A DNA stretch of 34,862 nt from positions 1 through 34,862 of the forward strand of contig CAIMWF010000010.1 of assembly GCA_903845055.1 (NCBI GenBank). The letters are read 5' to 3'. Source of the DNA: an uncultured Bacteroidales bacterium (GTDB lineage: Bacteria; Bacteroidota; Bacteroidia; Bacteroidales; FEN-979). Below the pieces are notes generated by a model that worked only from the letters and a program-made list of their open reading frames with translations, ran no database searches and was not told the origin of the DNA. Position numbers and translations under genes: made by a program. This document shows positions 9,441 through 34,429 of the stretch, one piece after another. Numbering within the stretch: the first letter of the stretch is position 1; every line of letters starts with the position of its first letter.

Positions 9441-10595
9441 ATGAAGATTATTGTACTCGGCGCGGGCCTCGTCGGGGGACCCATGGCCATCGATCTTTCG
9501 AAGGATAAGGCATTTGAAGTGACTGTTGCCGATATAAACCCGGCTGCACTCCAGGCGATTGCCGGCCGGCAAAGCGGGTTTGGGCGCCCCATTGCCACCG
9601 TCACCGCCGACCTGTCCGATCCCGCCAGGGTGGCGCATCTGGTGGCCGGTCACGACATGGTGATAAACGCCGTTCCCGGCTTCATGGGATTTCAAACACT
9701 GAAGGCCATCATCGGGGCGGGGAAAAACGTGGTGGATATCGCCTTTTTTATTGAAGATCCCTTCGAACTCGATGAGCTGGCCCGCCAGAAGAATGTCACC
9801 GCCATCATGGACATGGGCGTGGCCCCCGGCATGTGCAACGTGCTCATCGGGTATGCCGACCACCTGTTCGACGAAACATTGGATATTCTCTACATGGTGG
9901 GCGGGCTGCCCGAAATCCGCGAATGGCCCTATGAATACAAGGCCGTTTTTTCGCCGGTTGATGTGATCGAGGAATACACGCGGCCGGCGCGCTACATCGA
10001 AAACGGCAAGTTTATCATAAAACCCGCCCTCTCTGATCCCGAACTGATCACCTTCCCGGGCATCGGCACCCTGGAGGCCTTCAACACCGACGGGCTGCGG
10101 TCGCTGGCGCACACGGTGAAATGCCCCAACATGAAGGAGAAAACCCTCCGTTACCCCGGTCACATCGACAAGATGCGGCTGCTGCGGGAGACCGGTTTTT
10201 TCAGCCAGGAGGAGATCGAGGTGCGCGGCGTGTGCATCAAACCCATGGACCTTACGGCACGGCTGCTCTTCCCGAAATGGAAACTGGAGGAGGGCGAGGT
10301 TGACATCACCGTGATGCAGGTAATGGCTGAAGGAATGAAAGACCGAAAAAAAATTCGCTATACCTGGGACCTGTACGACAAATACGATCCCATCACCCGC
10401 ATCCATTCGATGGCCCGAACCACCGGGTATTCGGCGACCGTCGCCCTGCGCATGATCGCCGACGGACTTTATACCCGCAAGGGGATCTCGGTTCCCGAAT
10501 TCATCGGGAAACAGCCTGCATGCGTCACCTATATGCTGCAGGGGCTGAAACAGAGGGGGGTTGTTTACCGGGAGACCCTGGAGAATATCGAATAA
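9441..10595 (+). CDS. Saccharopine dehydrogenase-like NAD(P)-dependent oxidoreductase
   Basis: An in-frame ATG exists at 9393, but I take the ATG at 9441 (MKIIVLGAGLVGGPMA) because it places the Rossmann dinucleotide motif GAGLVG at residues 7-12, the normal distance from the start. This gives 384 residues, the usual size of the saccharopine dehydrogenase family (glutamate-forming, LYS9-like). AVPGFMGFQTLKAIIGAGKNVVDIAFF, split over the end of the Rossmann domain, and the MDMGVAPGMCNVL block fit that family, followed by the C-terminal catalytic/dimerisation domain. Members act in lysine catabolism or synthesis, and relatives work on carboxynorspermidine or other opine-like substrates. Sequence alone does not separate these here. 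It is followed 59 nt later by a HEAT-like gene. Confidence 0.85.
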   Translation: MKIIVLGAGLVGGPMAIDLSKDKAFEVTVADINPAALQAIAGRQSGFGRPIATVTADLSDPARVAHLVAGHDMVINAVPGFMGFQTLKAIIGAGKNVVDIAFFIEDPFELDELARQKNVTAIMDMGVAPGMCNVLIGYADHLFDETLDILYMVGGLPEIREWPYEYKAVFSPVDVIEEYTRPARYIENGKFIIKPALSDPELITFPGIGTLEAFNTDGLRSLAHTVKCPNMKEKTLRYPGHIDKMRLLRETGFFSQEEIEVRGVCIKPMDLTARLLFPKWKLEEGEVDITVMQVMAEGMKDRKKIRYTWDLYDKYDPITRIHSMARTTGYSATVALRMIADGLYTRKGISVPEFIGKQPACVTYMLQGLKQRGVVYRETLENIE

Positions 10596-10654
10596 CGGAT
10601 ATTGAACATTGTATATCGAAGTGTGGAGAAACGAATGATTACCGGGTAACATTT

Positions 10655-11179
10655 ATGGAACTGAATTCATTCCTGACCGATAAGGGCATCAAGCCGAAAG
10701 AGAAGACAGAAATTCTTGCCGCGATGATCGCCGAAAAGGAGATCATGGTAGCGCAACTGGCCGGTTTTGCGAAGATGGCGAAGGAACCGGTGAAGGCGAC
10801 CTGCATGGAGGCCCTGGAACATGCCACGCTTGCAAATCCGGCCATCCTCGATGAGGCATCTTTTGATTTTGTCGTTCAATCCCTGAAAGACAAAGGACCC
10901 CGTGTGAAATGGGAATCGGCAAGGGTGATCGCCAACACCGCCCATCTTTTCAAAGGCAGGCTCGGCCCGGCCGTCGAAAACCTGCTGGCCAACACAGAAC
11001 ACCCGGGGACCGTGGTGCGCTGGAGCGCGGCCTTCGCGCTTGGCGGGATCCTGAAATTAAACACTTCCCTGAACAATGAACTGGTTCCGGCCATCCGGGC
11101 CATCGTGGAACGGGAAAAGAAGGAGAGCATCAGGAAGCTCTACCTGCAGGCCATGAGGAAAGTGACGAGTGACGAATGA
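10655..11179 (+). CDS. Small HEAT-like helical repeat protein
   Basis: The frame is open further upstream into the previous gene, but the first start beyond that gene is the ATG at 10655 (MELNSFLTDKG), giving 174 residues. The sequence is all helical, with HEAT-like pairs such as VKWESARVIANTAHLF and GTVVRWSAAFALGGILKLN. These repeats usually form protein-binding superhelices; no enzymatic motif or signal peptide is seen. The last residues, KVTSDE, and the TGA stop are encoded by a heptamer repeat (AGTGACG units) that starts within the gene. The protein's natural C terminus has therefore probably been rewritten by repeat growth. The function is unknown. Confidence 0.72.
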   Translation: MELNSFLTDKGIKPKEKTEILAAMIAEKEIMVAQLAGFAKMAKEPVKATCMEALEHATLANPAILDEASFDFVVQSLKDKGPRVKWESARVIANTAHLFKGRLGPAVENLLANTEHPGTVVRWSAAFALGGILKLNTSLNNELVPAIRAIVEREKKESIRKLYLQAMRKVTSDE

Positions 11180-11188
11180 CGAGTGACG
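11161..11188 (+). repeat. Heptamer tandem array (AGTGACG x4) overlapping the stop codon of the HEAT-like gene
   Basis: Four units of 7 bp: AGTGACG, AGTGACG, AATGACG, AGTGACG. TGA occurs in every unit at the same offset. Because 7 is not a multiple of 3, consecutive units place TGA in all three plus-strand frames. The actual stop of the gene (11177-11179) is one of these TGAs. Confidence 0.8.
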
Positions 11189-11225
11189 GATCAAAGGAAT
11201 TTCCGGGGGGAAAGCAGCCACGCAA

Positions 11226-11333
11226 TTCACATTTCAGATTTCAGATTTCGCATTTTTTTACTTACAATATTTTGAATGTGAGATGTGATATCTGAAATCT
11301 GATAAATCTCAAATCTGAAATCTGAAATGTGAA
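11226..11333. terminator. 23-bp perfect inverted repeat between convergent genes (bidirectional terminator-like)
   Basis: The arm 11226-11248 is the exact reverse complement of 11311-11333. Both arms are built of CTGAAAT/ATTTCAG heptamers. The 62-nt loop (11249-11310) also carries CTGAAAT-like units. It lies between the 3' ends of the HEAT-like gene (+) and the glutamine synthetase family gene (-). Position supports transcription stop or RNA 3'-end protection, but there is no U-tract directly after the stem, so it may simply be a repeat. Confidence 0.5.
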
Positions 11334-11338
11334 GGACA

Positions 11339-12844
11339 CTACCCGCAATGCAGGTATGCGTTGACAAGTTTCATCACCTCTTTTTCCTGGTTTTTAACCC
11401 GGTCGCGGAGATCGGCGTCGTTGAAGCTTTTCAGGTAGCGGATCAGCCCGTCGATGATCTGTTTCGGGAAGATGCCGTGCTCCTCGTAAATGGCGCGGTG
11501 TTTTTCAAGGTAGTCGGCCGATTCCCAGCAGGAGAAGGGCAGTTGCTGAAGTTCGTTGACCCTTGACTTGTATTTTTCTTCGAAGATATTGACATCGACA
11601 TAGGTTTTCGCGGCCATCTCCAGGGCGTTCGCCATCTCGATGCCATGACGCGCAGCCACCGTGAGGCCCGCGAAAAGCAGGTAGATGTCGGCCGACCCGT
11701 CGGGACAGCGGAACTCGACCGTTTGACGGCCTCCGAATCCCTGCTGGGTGTCTTTTTCCTGCGGGTTGGCATCGGTGATCATGTCGTGCTTGCTGCCCCA
11801 GCCAAGGGGGACGCGTACCAGCACCGAACGGTTGCGGTCGCCCCAGCATACATTGGTGGGCGCCTCCTGGTGCGGGACCAGGCGAAAGTAACTCGTGGGG
11901 ATCATGTTCCCGAAGGCGGTGAGCGATTGCGACAGGTCAAGATACCCGGCAATCGCCTTGCGGGCGGTATCGGAGAGTTTCCCGTTGTCGAGCATCACGC
12001 TGCTGCCGTTTTTCATGAGCCGCGTGTGCACGTGCATCCCGCTGCCGGCTTTGCCGGTGGTGATCTTGGGGGCAAAGGTGATGGTGACACCGTATTTGTG
12101 GGCCAGCGAACGCAGCACCCATTTGGCGATCATCAGCTGGTCGGCTGCATCTTCGAGGCGCACCGGGGTGAATTCAATTTCGTTCTGTTCGTACGACATG
12201 CCCGATTCGGTAAAGTTGCCCACCTCGGAATGGCCGTATTTGATGAATCCGCCGCACCTGGCAATCGCGTGCATGGCTTCGATGCGCAGTTTTTCCCATT
12301 TACAGAAGGGCGAAGACTCGTGGTAGCCGCGCTGGTCAACCGCCTCGAACAGGCTGTCCTGCTCGCTGATGATGTAATATTCAAGTTCGCCCATCACCTC
12401 GAACGAAAGCCCGGTTCTTGCTTTCAGCACCTCGTGCGACTTCCGCAGGATGTGCTCGGGCGAGTTGGCATAGGGCTGCCCGTCCTTGTCGTAGTATGAG
12501 CAGAGGATGTCGACTGCCGGGATGGGGGAGAAGGGGTTGACGAATGCCGAACGATAGCGGGGGATCACGTAAAGGTCGGAAGATCCCGCCTCGACATAGT
12601 TCGGGAAAAGACTGGAACCATCGACGCGCTCGCCTGCGCTGAGGATGCTGTCGAGGTGCTGGCGGTCCTTGATGATGAAATTGAGCGTCTTGAGCCGGCT
12701 GTCGGCTGCCGAATAACGGAAGTTCAGCATCTGGATGCCGTTCGCTTCAATGAAGCGGATCAGGTCGGCTTTGGTAAAATCATCGGCGGGTTTGTCGAGG
12801 AAGTGCACGAGGGCGTTGGGATTCAGCGAAATGTTGTCATTCAT
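11339..12844 (-). CDS. Glutamine synthetase family protein (type I-like, no obvious adenylylation site)
   Basis: 501 residues, slightly longer than typical GlnA (~470). Family motifs are in order: the beta-grasp N-terminal domain to ~110, MGELEYYI at 151-158 with metal-binding Glu, YEQNEIEFTP at 218-227, the ATP-binding block PKITTGKAGSGMHVH at 259-273, and WGDRNRSVLVRVP at 334-346 with catalytic Arg. An FRCPDGSAD motif replaces the usual FRxPD region. The usual Tyr adenylylation loop (NLYDLP-like) is not recognisable; the corresponding stretch reads NELQQLPFSC. The enzyme may be a true ammonia-assimilating synthetase or a gamma-glutamyl-amide ligase of the same fold. It is divergent from the TerC gene with a shared 100-nt promoter region. 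Confidence 0.88.
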   Translation of the reverse strand: MNDNISLNPNALVHFLDKPADDFTKADLIRFIEANGIQMLNFRYSAADSRLKTLNFIIKDRQHLDSILSAGERVDGSSLFPNYVEAGSSDLYVIPRYRSAFVNPFSPIPAVDILCSYYDKDGQPYANSPEHILRKSHEVLKARTGLSFEVMGELEYYIISEQDSLFEAVDQRGYHESSPFCKWEKLRIEAMHAIARCGGFIKYGHSEVGNFTESGMSYEQNEIEFTPVRLEDAADQLMIAKWVLRSLAHKYGVTITFAPKITTGKAGSGMHVHTRLMKNGSSVMLDNGKLSDTARKAIAGYLDLSQSLTAFGNMIPTSYFRLVPHQEAPTNVCWGDRNRSVLVRVPLGWGSKHDMITDANPQEKDTQQGFGGRQTVEFRCPDGSADIYLLFAGLTVAARHGIEMANALEMAAKTYVDVNIFEEKYKSRVNELQQLPFSCWESADYLEKHRAIYEEHGIFPKQIIDGLIRYLKSFNDADLRDRVKNQEKEVMKLVNAYLHCG

Positions 12845-12876
12845 GGCCTTTATGATTCAGTGAATATCAGGGGCGA

Positions 12877-12903
12877 CAAAAGTAAGAATATTTTATAACT
12901 TTG
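12877..12903. promoter_or_regulatory. Divergent consensus -7 elements for the glutamine synthetase family gene (-) and TerC gene (+)
   Basis: TACTTTTG on the minus strand (12884-12877) and TAACTTTG on the plus strand (12896-12903) both match the Bacteroidetes -7 consensus TAnnTTTG exactly. They lie about 33 nt and 41 nt from the respective start codons and are separated by only 11 bp, so the two promoters should compete or be co-regulated. No convincing -33 TTTG was found. Confidence 0.5.
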
Positions 12904-12944
12904 TCATCCTGTCACCTCAACCTCTCATACTCATTTGCGATGGA

Positions 12945-14015
12945 ATGACCAACCTGAACGAAATTGTCTTCTTCACCTCCTTCATCCTCTTCATCGGCAT
13001 CATGCTGGGGATCGACCTGGGTTTTTTCCAGAAGAAGAACCATGCCCAGTCGGTTCGGGAGGCGGTTGCCTGGACCCTGGTCTGGGTGGGAGTTTCCGTA
13101 GGGTTTTACCTGCTCATCCGTTTTCACGGGAACTGGATTCACGGCAGCCATACCATCGAAGCGCTCCAGGCGCGCATCACCAAATTCCACCACCCGATCA
13201 ACATCACCGGGCTGAGCCTCCAGGAGGCCATCAGCCGCTACAACCGGAACCTTTCGCTCGAGTACCTCACCGGTTACCTCATCGAATATTCCCTCTCGGT
13301 CGACAATGTCTTTGTCATCGTCATGATCTTCATCTCCTTCAACATCAAGCCAAAATACTTCAAGCGGGTCCTTTTCTGGGGGATCCTGGGGGCCGTGGTC
13401 ATGCGTTTTCTTTTTATTTTCGCGGCGAGCGCGCTGATCCAGCGCTTTGCATGGTTTCTCTTCGTTTTCGGGGGAATGCTGCTGATCATCGGGTTCAGGA
13501 TGGGCTACCAGTTCCTGTATGGCGCGGAGGACGAACAGATCGACACCGAAAAGCACCCGGTGGTCAGGATGGCTTCACGTTTTTTCAATGTTGCGGATGA
13601 TGAGCACGTGGAAACCTTTTTCCTTCGCCGGCAGGGCAGGCTTTATGTCACGCCGCTTTTCATCGTTTTGCTGGTCATCGAGTTCTCGGATGTTTTATTT
13701 GCAGTCGATTCGGTCCCGGCAGTGTTTTCGGTGACGCAGGATCCTTACATCGTCTTTTTCTCGAACATCTTTGCCATCCTCGGGCTGCGCTCCCTGTTTT
13801 TCCTGGTGATGGATGTCATGAACCGGTTCCACTACCTCAAAATGGGACTGGCGGTGCTGCTGACCTTTGTCGGGGTGAAGATGCTGGTGCACGACATTTT
13901 CAGGATATCCACCAATGTCTCCCTTATCGTCATCGCCTCCATCCTTGCCGCCAGCATCCTGGCCTCGAACCTGAGAACCTTCATTATCAGGAGAAAACTG
14001 AATTTGAAGATTTGA
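12945..14015 (+). CDS. TerC/Alx family integral membrane protein
   Basis: 356 residues with about nine hydrophobic segments. The two family signatures are present: LIEYSLSVDNVFVI around residue 112-125 and IEFSDVLFAVDSVPAVFSVTQ around 245-265. Acidic residues inside these membrane helices (Glu114, Asp120 and the EFSD/FAVDS pair) are those linked to metal transport in the family; Alx-type relatives in other bacteria handle manganese. Residues ~62-105 form an extended soluble loop. No yybP-ykoY-type riboswitch is evident in the short leader. The final codons (NLKI, stop) are supplied by the octamer array that follows. Confidence 0.9.
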   Translation: MTNLNEIVFFTSFILFIGIMLGIDLGFFQKKNHAQSVREAVAWTLVWVGVSVGFYLLIRFHGNWIHGSHTIEALQARITKFHHPINITGLSLQEAISRYNRNLSLEYLTGYLIEYSLSVDNVFVIVMIFISFNIKPKYFKRVLFWGILGAVVMRFLFIFAASALIQRFAWFLFVFGGMLLIIGFRMGYQFLYGAEDEQIDTEKHPVVRMASRFFNVADDEHVETFFLRRQGRLYVTPLFIVLLVIEFSDVLFAVDSVPAVFSVTQDPYIVFFSNIFAILGLRSLFFLVMDVMNRFHYLKMGLAVLLTFVGVKMLVHDIFRISTNVSLIVIASILAASILASNLRTFIIRRKLNLKI

Positions 14016-14144
14016 GGATTTGAGGATTTGAGGATGTGAAGATTTGAGGATTTGAGGATGTGAAGATTTGAGGATTTGAAGATTTGAGAATTTGAGGATG
14101 TGAAGATTTGAGGATGTGAAGATTTGAGGATGTGAAGATTTGAG
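14001..14144 (+). repeat. Octamer tandem array (GATTTGAG/GATGTGAA, 18 units) overlapping the TerC stop codon
   Basis: Eighteen consecutive 8-bp units run without interruption. Variants are GATTTGAG, GATGTGAA, GATTTGAA, AATTTGAG and AATTTGAA. Only positions 1, 4 and 8 vary, G at 4 always occurs with A at 8, and TGA at positions 5-7 is present in every unit. Since 8 is not a multiple of 3, TGA falls in all three plus-strand frames. The TerC stop at 14013-14015 is one of these TGAs. There are no spacers, so this is not a CRISPR array. Confidence 0.9.
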
Positions 14145-14241
14145 AATATCTGAAATCTGAAATATGAGATTTGAAATGTGAAATGATTTCCTCCCTGAAA
14201 TTCCTCCTGATCTGTCACTCGTCACTCGTCACTTGTCATTC
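14145..14241. repeat. Degenerate CTGAAAT heptamers and GTCACTC heptamer array at the 3' end of meaB
   Basis: 14150-14184 holds imperfect CTGAAAT-type units like those of the inverted repeat at 11226-11333. 14214-14241 is GTCACTC, GTCACTC, GTCACTT, GTCATTC; on the minus strand, which codes meaB, every unit carries TGA. The meaB stop (14231-14229) is one of them, and the protein end NDK is repeat-encoded. Together with the octamer array this fills the convergent gap between TerC and meaB. Confidence 0.7.
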
Positions 14242-15356
14242 CTAAAATATCTTGCCAGCATCTCCTGCGCCGCCTGGTAAGGGTTCAGGGTTCCTTTCAT
14301 GATCTCCGCCTCTCTCGAAGCAAGGTCGCGGCTGATCTCTTTCTGGCTGAAGAAGTGCCGGCGGAGGCCCTCTTCGATCGTCTCCCTGAAGACCTGCCGG
14401 TTTTGTTCCATCCGCCGTTGTTGAAAAAATCCGGTTTCGCCGGTGAGCCTGCGGTGCTCCATGATCAGCTCCCATACATGGCCGATCCCCATTTTGGTGC
14501 GGGAAGAGCAAATGTCGGCCACCGGGGTCCAGCCGCTGCCGGGGGGAGGAAAGAGGTGCAGGGCGTTGGCATACTCCACGCGGGCCGTTTTTGCCTTGGC
14601 CAGGTTGTCGCCGTCGGCCTTGTTGATCACGATGGCGTCGGCCATTTCGATGATGCCGCGCTTGATCCCCTGGAGTTCGTCGCCGGCACCGGCCAGCATG
14701 AGGAGCAGGAAGAAATCGACCATCGAGTGGACCGTCGTTTCCGACTGCCCGACCCCAACGGTTTCGATAAAGATTACATCGAACCCTGCGGCCTCGCAAA
14801 GCACGATGGTTTCGCGGGTTTTCCTGGCCACGCCTCCCAGCGATCCTGCAGAGGGCGAAGGACGGATAAAGGCATCCGGGTCGACCGACAACTCCTCCAT
14901 CCGGGTCTTGTCGCCCAGGATGCTGCCCTTTGAGCGGCTGCTGCTGGGGTCAACCGCCAGCACCGCCAGCTTGTGTCCCATTGCCGTCAGGTGTTTCCCG
15001 AGTGCTTCGATAAAAGTACTTTTTCCCACCCCGGGAACCCCCGTTATTCCAATTCTGATGCTCCCTTGCCCGGCTTGCCCTTCATTCGTAAATCGTAAAT
15101 CGTAAATCGTCAATCTTCTAAGGCACTCTGCAATAACTTCCTGTCCCTGCGCCTGGTGTGCCGTGAGGCTGCTCTCCACCAGCGTGATCGCCTTGCTCAG
15201 GATGGTCCGGTTGCCCGCAAAGATCCCTTCGAGGTACTCCTGCGTGGTGAGCCCCCGTGGTTTATGCGCACGGATCTTCCTGGCGACCTCCTCGTTGACC
15301 GGGGATGGCGGATCGATGCCATTCATGACATTGAGAGCGGATTTGTCAGTCATCAT
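14229..15356 (-). CDS. meaB: Methylmalonyl-CoA mutase-associated GTPase, MeaB/ArgK family
   Basis: 375 residues, G3E-type P-loop GTPase that protects and loads adenosylcobalamin into methylmalonyl-CoA mutase. Motifs: Walker A GVPGVGKST at 106-114, AVDPSSSRSKGSILGDKTRM at ~134-153, ETVGVGQSE at 198-206 and NKADGD at 245-250. Two ATGs are adjacent (15356 and 15353); either could be used. Residues ~82-92 (LTIYDLRFTN) just before the nucleotide-binding strand are encoded by a CGTAAAT heptamer array and have no counterpart in the usual family pattern, where the helix runs almost directly into the strand. They look like an in-frame insertion. The mutase subunits are not in the window. The stop codon lies in a second heptamer array. 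Confidence 0.93.
   Translation of the reverse strand: MMTDKSALNVMNGIDPPSPVNEEVARKIRAHKPRGLTTQEYLEGIFAGNRTILSKAITLVESSLTAHQAQGQEVIAECLRRLTIYDLRFTNEGQAGQGSIRIGITGVPGVGKSTFIEALGKHLTAMGHKLAVLAVDPSSSRSKGSILGDKTRMEELSVDPDAFIRPSPSAGSLGGVARKTRETIVLCEAAGFDVIFIETVGVGQSETTVHSMVDFFLLLMLAGAGDELQGIKRGIIEMADAIVINKADGDNLAKAKTARVEYANALHLFPPPGSGWTPVADICSSRTKMGIGHVWELIMEHRRLTGETGFFQQRRMEQNRQVFRETIEEGLRRHFFSQKEISRDLASREAEIMKGTLNPYQAAQEMLARYFRNDK
15084..15114. repeat. CGTAAAT heptamer array inside the meaB coding region
   Basis: About four units of CGTAAAT/CGTCAAT on the plus strand (15087-15114), preceded by a partial unit. The coding (minus) strand reads GATTTAC units, which contain no stop in the frame used. 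They encode residues of about 82-91 of the GTPase. The array resembles the other intergenic heptamers in size and degeneracy but differs in sequence. Confidence 0.8.
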
Positions 15357-15390
15357 GGGTTAGCATTGGGAGGGTGGAGATGTATACAAG

Positions 15391-15545
15391 GCAAAAGGCA
15401 GTAGGCAGTAGGGTGGGGGGACTATATGTTTTCCGGAATTTGTCATTTGTCACTCGTCATTTGTCACTTTTACTGCGTGTATTCAGTTTTTTGATCAGTG
15501 CGTTTAGCATTTTTCCCATTGCCCACTGCCTATTGCCTATTGCCT
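15391..15545. repeat. Heptamer arrays upstream of meaB (GGCAGTA, GTCATTT and inverted GCCTATT)
   Basis: Three clusters lie between the meaB start and the tRNA promoter. 15391-15412 has AGGCAGTAGGCAGTAGG; 15438-15470 has TTTGTCATTTGTCACTCGTC-type units (the GTCACTC family again); 15518-15545 has ACTGCCTATTGCCTATTGCC, which is the inverted counterpart of the first cluster. The inverted clusters could form a long imperfect stem with a ~105-nt loop. Nothing else is visible in 15357-15600. Confidence 0.6.
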
Positions 15546-15622
15546 TGTTTCTGTCTTGTACTCCCTTATAGGTACAAAGATAATTTTTTTTCCAATTCGC
15601 CCTGTATTTCCCAAAAAGTCAC

Positions 15623-15642: not shown

Positions 15643-15715
15643 CTCTTCGTAGCTCAGTTGGTAGAGCAATTGACTCTTAATCAATGGGTCCCAGGTTCGA
15701 GTCCTGGCGAGGAGA
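15643..15715 (+). tRNA. tRNA-Lys (anticodon CTT)
   Basis: A 73-nt cloverleaf folds completely. The acceptor stem CTCTTCG (15643-15649) pairs with CGAGGAG (15708-15714) with one G-T pair. D arm: GCTC/GAGC. Anticodon stem ATTGA/TCAAT holds loop CTCTTAA, anticodon CTT. The variable loop is GGGTC and the T arm CCAGG-TTCGAGT-CCTGG. The discriminator base is A15715. CCA is not encoded at the correct position (the next bases are CAC), as is usual in this phylum. Confidence 0.96.
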
Positions 15716-15726
15716 CACCAAAATCA

Positions 15727-27033: not shown

Positions 27034-27080
27034 AAATGAAAAATGGCAAAACGGACTTCCCGTTTTGCCATTTTTCATTT
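27034..27080. terminator. Perfect 21-bp hairpin between convergent genes
   Basis: Arms 27034-27054 and 27060-27080 are exact reverse complements with a 5-nt loop (ACTTC). The right arm holds T runs. It lies 14 nt after the T9SS gene stop and 80 nt from the phosphatase stop, so it can terminate in both directions. The following bases (27081-27115) carry further ACCATTTTA units of the same repeat family as 23848-23935. Confidence 0.75.
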
Positions 27081-27161
27081 AACCATTTTACTATTTTACC
27101 ATTTTACCATTTGCAGATCATGCCCCGCGTATGAAAAATGGTTGGTAAGCCTGCGGGGAGG

Positions 27162-34304: not shown

Positions 34305-34429
34305 AGGACCTCTCCCCGGTTATAACAGGACCTCTCCCCGGTTATGACAGGACCTCTTCCCGGTTATGACAGGACCTCTCCACGGTTATGACAGGACCTC
34401 TCCACGGTTATGACAGGACCTCTCCCCGG
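34305..34429 (+). repeat. 22-bp tandem repeat, five full copies plus a partial sixth
   Basis: The unit AGGACCTCTCCCCGGTTATG plus AC repeats at 34305, 34327, 34349, 34371 and 34393 with one to two changes per copy. A sixth starts at 34415 and runs into a GC-rich hairpin. There are no spacers between copies. It begins 44 nt after the response-regulator stop codon. Confidence 0.9.

Follow-up and report, generated by a model that had tools for sequence, protein, structure and literature searches.

The short tandemly repeated repetitive (STRR) sequences of cyanobacteria are tandem units of about 7 nt found at many loci, mostly in non-coding DNA. Repetitive extragenic palindromic (REP) sequences and bacterial interspersed mosaic elements (BIMEs) are intergenic and dispersed, and they form inverted pairs. 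Long simple sequence repeats with units of 5–11 nt are also on record (Mrazek et al. 2007, as cited in PMC4679880). Rehm et al. (2015, PMC4692102) describe the heptamers GGGAATC and GGGGA(C/T)T of Xanthomonas and Nostoc as intergenic, with few arrays between divergent genes and with inverted pairs in Xanthomonas; GGGAATC-type units lie in sense up to 50 bp after a stop codon, overlap included, and in antisense over the 50 bp before an open reading frame (ORF). For the TAACTGA repeats of Beggiatoaceae, Cyanobacteria and some Bacteroidetes, MacGregor (2015, PMC4679880) states that forward arrays stop translation in all three frames, that forward repeats overlap the stop codons of 13 ORFs while reverse repeats lie inside ORFs, and that, according to the author, the gene-end position is a necessary consequence of the sequence. 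Oriented placement is already known for one heptamer and three-frame stops are already known for TAACTGA. Here we analyzed a 34,862-nt stretch of DNA (the window; the whole of contig CAIMWF010000010.1, our C10) from an uncultured Bacteroidales bacterium (GCA_903845055.1), in which the genes of a HEAT-like protein, TerC and MeaB each end inside a tandem array of 7- or 8-bp units carrying TGA. We consider it likely that the TGA at these gene ends and its orientation are by-products of two things, a polarity of the unit families relative to gene 3′ ends and a filter imposed by coding, and do not reflect selection for fail-safe stops.

The three gene ends had been noticed in a first-pass annotation of the window, and that observation is partly confirmed. 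The position of each gene end inside its array was confirmed, and in all three arrays TGA is present in every unit on the coding strand and all three frames are covered. The genes had been described as neighbors; the gene-end arrays are real, but glutamine synthetase (GS) sits between the HEAT-like and TerC genes. A consistent orientation holds for the three gene-end arrays but not for the array adjacent to GS, whose TGA is antisense to GS. What had been counted as three different arrays comes down to two unit families: GTCACTC is the reverse complement of rotated AGTGACG, and hence the HEAT-like and MeaB arrays belong to one family. The accompanying interpretation, which offered either fail-safe stops or selection against repeats that extend proteins, is partly supported. 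The former fares poorly on strand bias, on conservation and on shuffled units, while the latter agrees with where the arrays lie in and near coding sequences.

The genome comprises 3.95 Mb in 175 contigs and is about 95% complete. Our sample of it, the window plus fetched 20-kb stretches, amounts to 1,177,624 bp (~30% of the genome) with 893 genes, called by our own codon-model script and not by a standard annotator. All of the first stretches come from contigs picked via a match to one array pattern, and the later additions were more of the same contigs, C128 (from the same matches), four contigs from protein searches and two taken by number. Array density in the sample may be somewhat high because contigs were chosen through this pattern match. 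We found 205 arrays of period 7 or 8, compared with 1, 0, 1, 1 and 0 in five shuffled copies. They are intergenic in 145 cases, overlap a stop codon in 45, lie inside genes in 13 and at gene starts in 2, and several of the in-gene arrays fall in gene calls that are long and doubtful (a single 2361-nt call of contig C59 holds three, for instance). With tandem units beyond chance and mostly in non-coding DNA, the arrays belong among long simple sequence repeats and heptanucleotide arrays. An array is present in 26 of the 74 convergent gaps, 90 of the 443 tandem gaps and 20 of the 125 divergent gaps, the difference between the last two being small. In the first 0.81 Mb, where an array near two genes was counted twice, 38 placements overlap a stop codon, 24 lie within 15 nt after one and 23 within 15 nt of a start codon, and they show no majority just upstream of starts like that of the TAACTGA repeats. 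Stretches of five related genomes (800 kb) hold 109 arrays, partly of other unit families, of which 15 overlap a stop codon.

We scanned ten unit families, hand-picked from the array list with the rarer families omitted, in 818 gaps. In each family, the strand that tends to read away from a gene 3′ end is called 5′-type, and its reverse complement, found further downstream, is called 3′-type. Neighboring arrays of the same family are inverted in 15 pairs and direct in only one (n = 16, p = 5e-4), and the inverted pairs of each family have one sense only. The summed net polarity is 134, compared with 37.9 ± 9.4 under random orientation, and none of 2000 randomizations was as high. The same is true for tandem and convergent gaps holding a single array (net 50 versus 21.9; 0 of 2000 as high). 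Divergent gaps give no polarity signal (net 10 versus 13.4). When neighbors of different families are compared, with polarity assigned leaving the tested region out, the 5′-type precedes the 3′-type in 40 pairs, the reverse order occurs once, and 23 pairs are of equal type (11 + 12). By gene edge, and with polarity fitted on the same set, the consistent and inconsistent arrays number 73:24 at tandem stops, 56:9 at tandem starts, 39:3 in convergent gaps and 19:17 in divergent gaps. A compositional origin of the polarity was rejected, as array-free gaps are without a purine gradient after stops (purine fractions of 0.475 and 0.482 in tandem gaps and 0.497 and 0.507 in convergent gaps).

The polarity carried over from this genome also describes its relatives, in which 85 of 115 arrays are consistent and 30 are not (93 gaps, p = 3e-7). 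The ratios by edge are 24:8 at tandem stops, 16:6 at tandem starts, 31:6 in convergent gaps and 14:10 in divergent gaps, and the cross-family pairs are in order six times, reversed never and of equal type four times. The stop codon is probably not the cause of this polarity. One of the strongest polarities is that of AATTAAA, a family with stops on both strands. In tandem gaps, stop-first families, in which the 5′-type strand carries the stop, have sense:antisense counts of 46:2 near the stop and 11:31 further away, whereas the three families that carry it on the opposite strand (AAATCGT, AATCTGA and TTTTGAG) have 4:9 and 28:2, or 4:15 near the stop when convergent gaps are added, in which an array may count for two genes. 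The near-stop counts of these three families are small, and as the grouping uses the fitted polarity, the counts illustrate the point rather than test it. It is possible, if on balance doubtful, that ten or more families in tandem and convergent gaps follow one bracket-like code of orientation, with the 5′-type after a stop and the 3′-type before the next gene, that is independent of pairing and of stops and absent between divergent genes. Such a code would mean that a shared, direction-sensing process makes or keeps arrays at gene 3′ ends.

We then investigated the stop codons themselves, calling a strand stop-bearing if it has at least 0.5 stops per array unit. The stop-bearing strand is in sense in 36 of the 45 gene-end arrays; six arrays have stops on both strands, two on neither and one on the opposite strand. 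The 36 say little, because a gene can end only within an array having a stop on the coding strand. The 15 stop-overlapping arrays of the relatives divide into 10 in sense, two opposite, two with no stop and one with both. The stops used at the 45 gene ends are TAA (17), TGA (16) and TAG (12), against 435, 298 and 146 among all genes, and a TGA bias of gene-end arrays is rejected, as TAG and TAA arrays end genes likewise. No special conservation of the stop triplet was found at gene ends when they were compared with other intergenic arrays (Mann–Whitney p = 0.42 in this genome and 0.43 in the relatives). In this genome the stop triplet ranks slightly above other triplets in both settings (p = 0.03 and 0.01), a lead that was favored because only stop-containing arrays were included. 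The first-pass remark that TGA is kept where other positions vary is true, but this is nothing special to TGA. At gene ends, the 13 arrays of the TGACGAG family comprise 61 units; T is kept in 60 of them, G in 59 and A in 60, and the C and the second A in 59 each. In arrays of this family without a facing gene end, T, G and A are kept in 23, 22 and 23 of 23 units, and the same two positions vary. We also rejected the idea that units were chosen for their stops, since 28 of 39 distinct units bear a stop compared with 29.3 after shuffling of their letters. Compared with random intergenic k-mers, stop-bearing units of this genome came out higher in all but 31 of 500 draws; the A+T richness of the units may explain this. 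The counts of sense and opposite arrays in tandem gaps are 23:1 for arrays overlapping the stop, 19:7 at 0–14 nt past it (p = 0.03), 13:11 at 15–59 nt and 12:6 beyond; from 15 nt onward they sum to 25:17 (p = 0.28), which is no significant preference. In convergent gaps, assigned by the nearest 3′ end, they are 13:0 for overlapping arrays, 3:7 at 0–14 nt and 0:5 beyond.

A coding filter, that is, selection against repeats that extend proteins, is supported. Twenty-nine of the 45 gene-end arrays extend 1–20 nt into the coding sequence, and the gene ends at one of the array's stops. None of the 13 in-gene arrays of this genome lies within 150 nt of its gene's end, the nearest being at 487 nt, while four in-gene arrays of the relatives are nearer, at 10, 142, 146 and 242 nt. 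We compared eight array-ended proteins with their orthologues, five of them picked for a large array overlap and the other three being HEAT-like, TerC and MeaB; orthologues were kept if their identity was at least 45%, if they matched within the last 35 residues and if they did not run off a contig. Per gene, the orthologue median minus our own length is −5 (n = 18), 0 (n = 15), −4 (n = 18), −3 (n = 13) and 0 (n = 13) for the five, and −2 (n = 28), −1 (n = 29) and −2 (n = 3) for TerC, MeaB and HEAT-like, respectively. The array-ended proteins are thus 0–5 residues longer than the median orthologue, an outcome favored by the choice of five genes with large overlaps. The array-coded tail of the HEAT-like protein is absent from the orthologues of three relatives. 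In 20 of 20 GS sequences examined, our own included, the protein ends at a conserved HCG or very close to it. The slightly greater length of the array-ended proteins looks as if a lost or absorbed native stop had been replaced by the first array stop further on in the same frame.

These observations can be arranged as follows. The gene-end arrays are part of a large intergenic population of 7- and 8-nt arrays of many unit families, in which the 5′-type strand tends to read away from a gene 3′ end and the 3′-type reverse complement follows further downstream. In most of the abundant families, the 5′-type strand happens to carry a stop codon, and the stops of an array fall in all frames because 7 and 8 are not multiples of 3. 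An array that abuts or replaces the native stop would halt translation at the first in-frame stop, within 20 nt of array, and the resulting change of a few residues would be tolerated. Arrays in the stop-free orientation remain outside proteins because they would lengthen them. This arrangement builds on the abundance of the arrays, on a polarity seen in tandem and convergent gaps and not between divergent genes, on the lack of stop-specific conservation and on the length difference from orthologues. The native stops would have been lost or absorbed, and longer tails would have been purged. Our guess is that the arrays began as arms of inverted pairs at gene 3′ ends.

If gene-end arrays were instead kept to catch ribosomes that pass the native stop by read-through or frameshifting, one would understand why every frame meets a stop in the three original arrays and in most gene-end arrays of the stop-first families, why tandem arrays at 0–14 nt lean to the sense strand, why array-ended proteins are only a few residues longer and why single-array gaps show a clear polarity only for stop-first families and AATTAAA. 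Nevertheless, fail-safe selection at gene ends is not supported and unlikely. The stop triplet gains no extra conservation there, stop-bearing units are not enriched, the strand preference is no longer significant from 15 nt past the stop, and in multi-array gaps three families tend to face gene ends via their stop-free strand. An independent argument against a stop function is that GGGAATC of Xanthomonas, which by inspection is stop-free on both strands, is placed likewise (PMC4692102). Another alternative is that arrays insert into the final codons and cut the protein short, so that only the stop orientation survives. The 29 arrays that reach 1–20 nt upstream of the stop codon would fit such an insertion, but our own protein is at least as long as the median orthologue in all eight compared genes, five of which were picked for large overlap. 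Insertion with truncation is disfavored by orthologues that are not longer, and we regard it as quite improbable.

A different kind of explanation would make the arrays the arms of intrinsic terminators or RNA 3′-end hairpins, with the pairing of the stem setting the polarity. The 15:1 excess of inverted same-family neighbors in this genome, the frequent arrays between convergent genes and the strong folding of same-family pairs (mean z −6.9; 16 folds of 8 pairs) speak for it. At positions 11220–11338, the gap between the HEAT-like and GS genes folds on both strands (z −6.5 and −5.9) into a hairpin with arms 11224–11255 and 11275–11333. Most ordered pairs are, however, cross-family, and these do not fold (80 folds of 40 pairs gave a mean z of −0.5 and a median of 0); their duplex energy of −6.1 kcal/mol compares with −8.6 ± 1.2 when partners are shuffled and −4.3 when one arm is reversed. 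Pairs of the same family barely exceed the number expected by chance (8 versus 5.6), the same-family neighbors of the relatives are as often direct as inverted, and the stretch 14140–14240 does not fold (z 1.2). As the cross-family arms do not pair and same-family pairing is near chance, pairing does not seem to set the polarity now, though it may have done so at the origin of the arrays. Overall, we consider terminator or hairpin arms unlikely as an explanation. The arrays could also be a REP- or BIME-like population mobilized by a Y1 transposase (REP-associated tyrosine transposase, RAYT), which would fit their dispersed, intergenic and polar distribution and the inverted pairs in this genome. 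The units are tandem and not palindromic, and no match to Y1_Tnp was found in this genome (G000, ~95% complete) or in G005, G008, G011 and G037, although a gene of G008 (L294) ends in a heptamer array. Such mobilization is highly improbable. Y1 transposase matches occur in 16 of the 21 genomes searched, with several copies in some.

Returning to family polarity and the coding filter as the source of the gene-end stops, several points weigh against this reading or parts of it. The single-array gaps give no polarity for AAATCGT (0), AATCTGA (−1) and TTTTGAG (−1), and because these three families contribute nothing, the single-array signal comes from the stop-first families and AATTAAA. The polarity was fitted on this genome, with which some regions of the relatives may be of common descent; the five longer contigs of the relatives together give 53:20, and only that of G003 is significant alone. 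Same-family neighbors of the relatives comprise 6 inverted pairs, 2 of them in reverse order, and 6 direct pairs, which means that the inversion typical of this genome is not repeated there, and this counts against the guess of an origin as inverted arms. Tandem arrays that do not overlap a stop more often have their stop-bearing strand in sense (44:24, p = 0.02). This lean can be explained by family polarity, yet most of it sits at 0–14 nt, where a second stop may bring a weak benefit, and the 46:2 ratio of stop-first families near the stop is stronger than the polarity elsewhere. Finally, some array-coded tails may be kept by selection. The gene at C40:800-1975 (L031, minus strand) shares an array-like tail of the type NSE-I/V/M-A-K/R with 7 of 15 orthologues (L232, L233, L235, L236, L238, L239 and L242; for example, NSEIAK, SGEIAR, NSEMAK and GSEVAK), and this array-coded end seems old because the tail is common to several orthologues.

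The arrays resemble the Xanthomonas and Nostoc heptamers (PMC4692102) in being intergenic, in overlapping stop codons, in forming inverted pairs and in having one strand in sense close to a stop but in antisense close to the following start. Those heptamers are one G-rich, quadruplex-forming and stop-free family, whereas the ten scanned families here have 7- or 8-nt units and share a polarity, and each of them has a stop on at least one strand (the absence of stops from the GGGAATC unit being judged by inspection). By inspection, none of the ten scanned units contains GGG for quadruplex-forming G-tracts; the rarer units ACAGGGTG and AAATCCCC hold GGG on one strand. With the TAACTGA repeats (PMC4679880) the arrays share all-frame stops in one orientation and an overlap with gene ends. 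The main genome described there has one family, mostly just upstream of start codons and in one orientation, in contrast to the many families here, with 45 of 205 arrays overlapping a stop. Tandem units of about 7 nt at many, mostly non-coding loci are common to long simple sequence repeats, STRR sequences and our arrays, while a cross-family polarity relative to gene 3′ ends does not appear in the descriptions compared. Unlike REP and BIME elements, the arrays lack a palindromic unit, and the search of this genome for a Y1 transposase gave no match. In the literature covered, which included few subscription journals, we found no report of one polarity common to many families in one genome.

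It seems that the orientation is one case of a wider rule at gene 3′ ends, a rule that is partly known. The tempting, poorly supported reading in terms of safety stops can be set apart from this broader rule, by which short repeats are oriented by the end of a neighboring gene. The same placement of a stop-free unit in Xanthomonas and Nostoc (PMC4692102) suggests a general process at bacterial gene ends, and because the present lineage has many families, the orientation rule can be tested by comparison. Arrays also supply new C-terminal tails, such as TSDE* or SEVAR*, on different genes. The array-coded tail TSDE* is common to four different proteins, those of C34:58900-60261, C152:22700-23290 and C48:21004-21384 and the HEAT-like ORF.

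The features of the window are collected in Table 1. TerC relatives in named genomes were found at 23 loci, mostly labeled as Bacteroidales or Bacteroidetes metagenome-assembled genomes. In the gap between terC and meaB, the identity of the unit differs between species, and MeaB ends in an array of its own in, for example, L096 and L111.

Table 1. Genes and 7/8-nt arrays of the window (positions of the whole stretch).
Feature	Position	Strand	Remark
HEAT-like ORF	10520–11179	+	Ends in array, tail VTSDE*; HEAT/ARM Pfam matches below cut-off
AGTGACG x4 array, TGACGAG family, 5′-type strand on +	11161–11188	+	HEAT-like stop 11177–11179 in third unit
AATCTGA-family array, TCAGATT strand on +, 5′-type arm	11224–11255	-	
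AATCTGA-family array, 3′-type arm	11275–11333	+	5 nt past GS stop; TGA antisense to GS
Glutamine synthetase (GS)	11339–12844	-	Stop at conserved C-terminus, outside array
TerC	12945–14015	+	Pfam-supported; ends LNLKI* in array, stop 14013–14015
GGATTTGA array, 8-bp, ~18 units	14002–14144	+	TGA in every + strand unit; holds TerC stop
AATCTGA-family array, between two gene-end arrays	14148–14184	+	
TGACGAG-family array, read on -	14214–14238	-	Contains MeaB stop 14229–14231
MeaB	14229–15356	-	Pfam-supported; array-coded end NDK*
TCGTAAA array inside meaB	15086–15115	+	Stops mainly on antisense (+) strand
AGGCAGT ... GTCACTC ... ATTGCCT arrays, upstream of meaB	15389–15548	.	5′-type first, 3′-type after
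AAATGGTA-family array (TTTTACCA on +), between convergent genes	27063–27112	-	

The heptamer array inside meaB (15086–15115) corresponds to about residues 81–91 of the protein. In the meaB genes of G012, G003 and G036, the matches break near residues 81–98, as if this spot takes in-frame insertions. A tRNA-Lys gene (ctt, 15643–15716, plus strand) lies just beyond the oriented cluster of three arrays upstream of meaB. Positions 34305–34429 hold 5.7 copies of a 22-nt tandem repeat, AGGACCTCTCCCCGGTTATGAC, which is of a class distinct from the 7- and 8-nt arrays. An array of about 22 nt was also seen downstream of terC in the relative L065.

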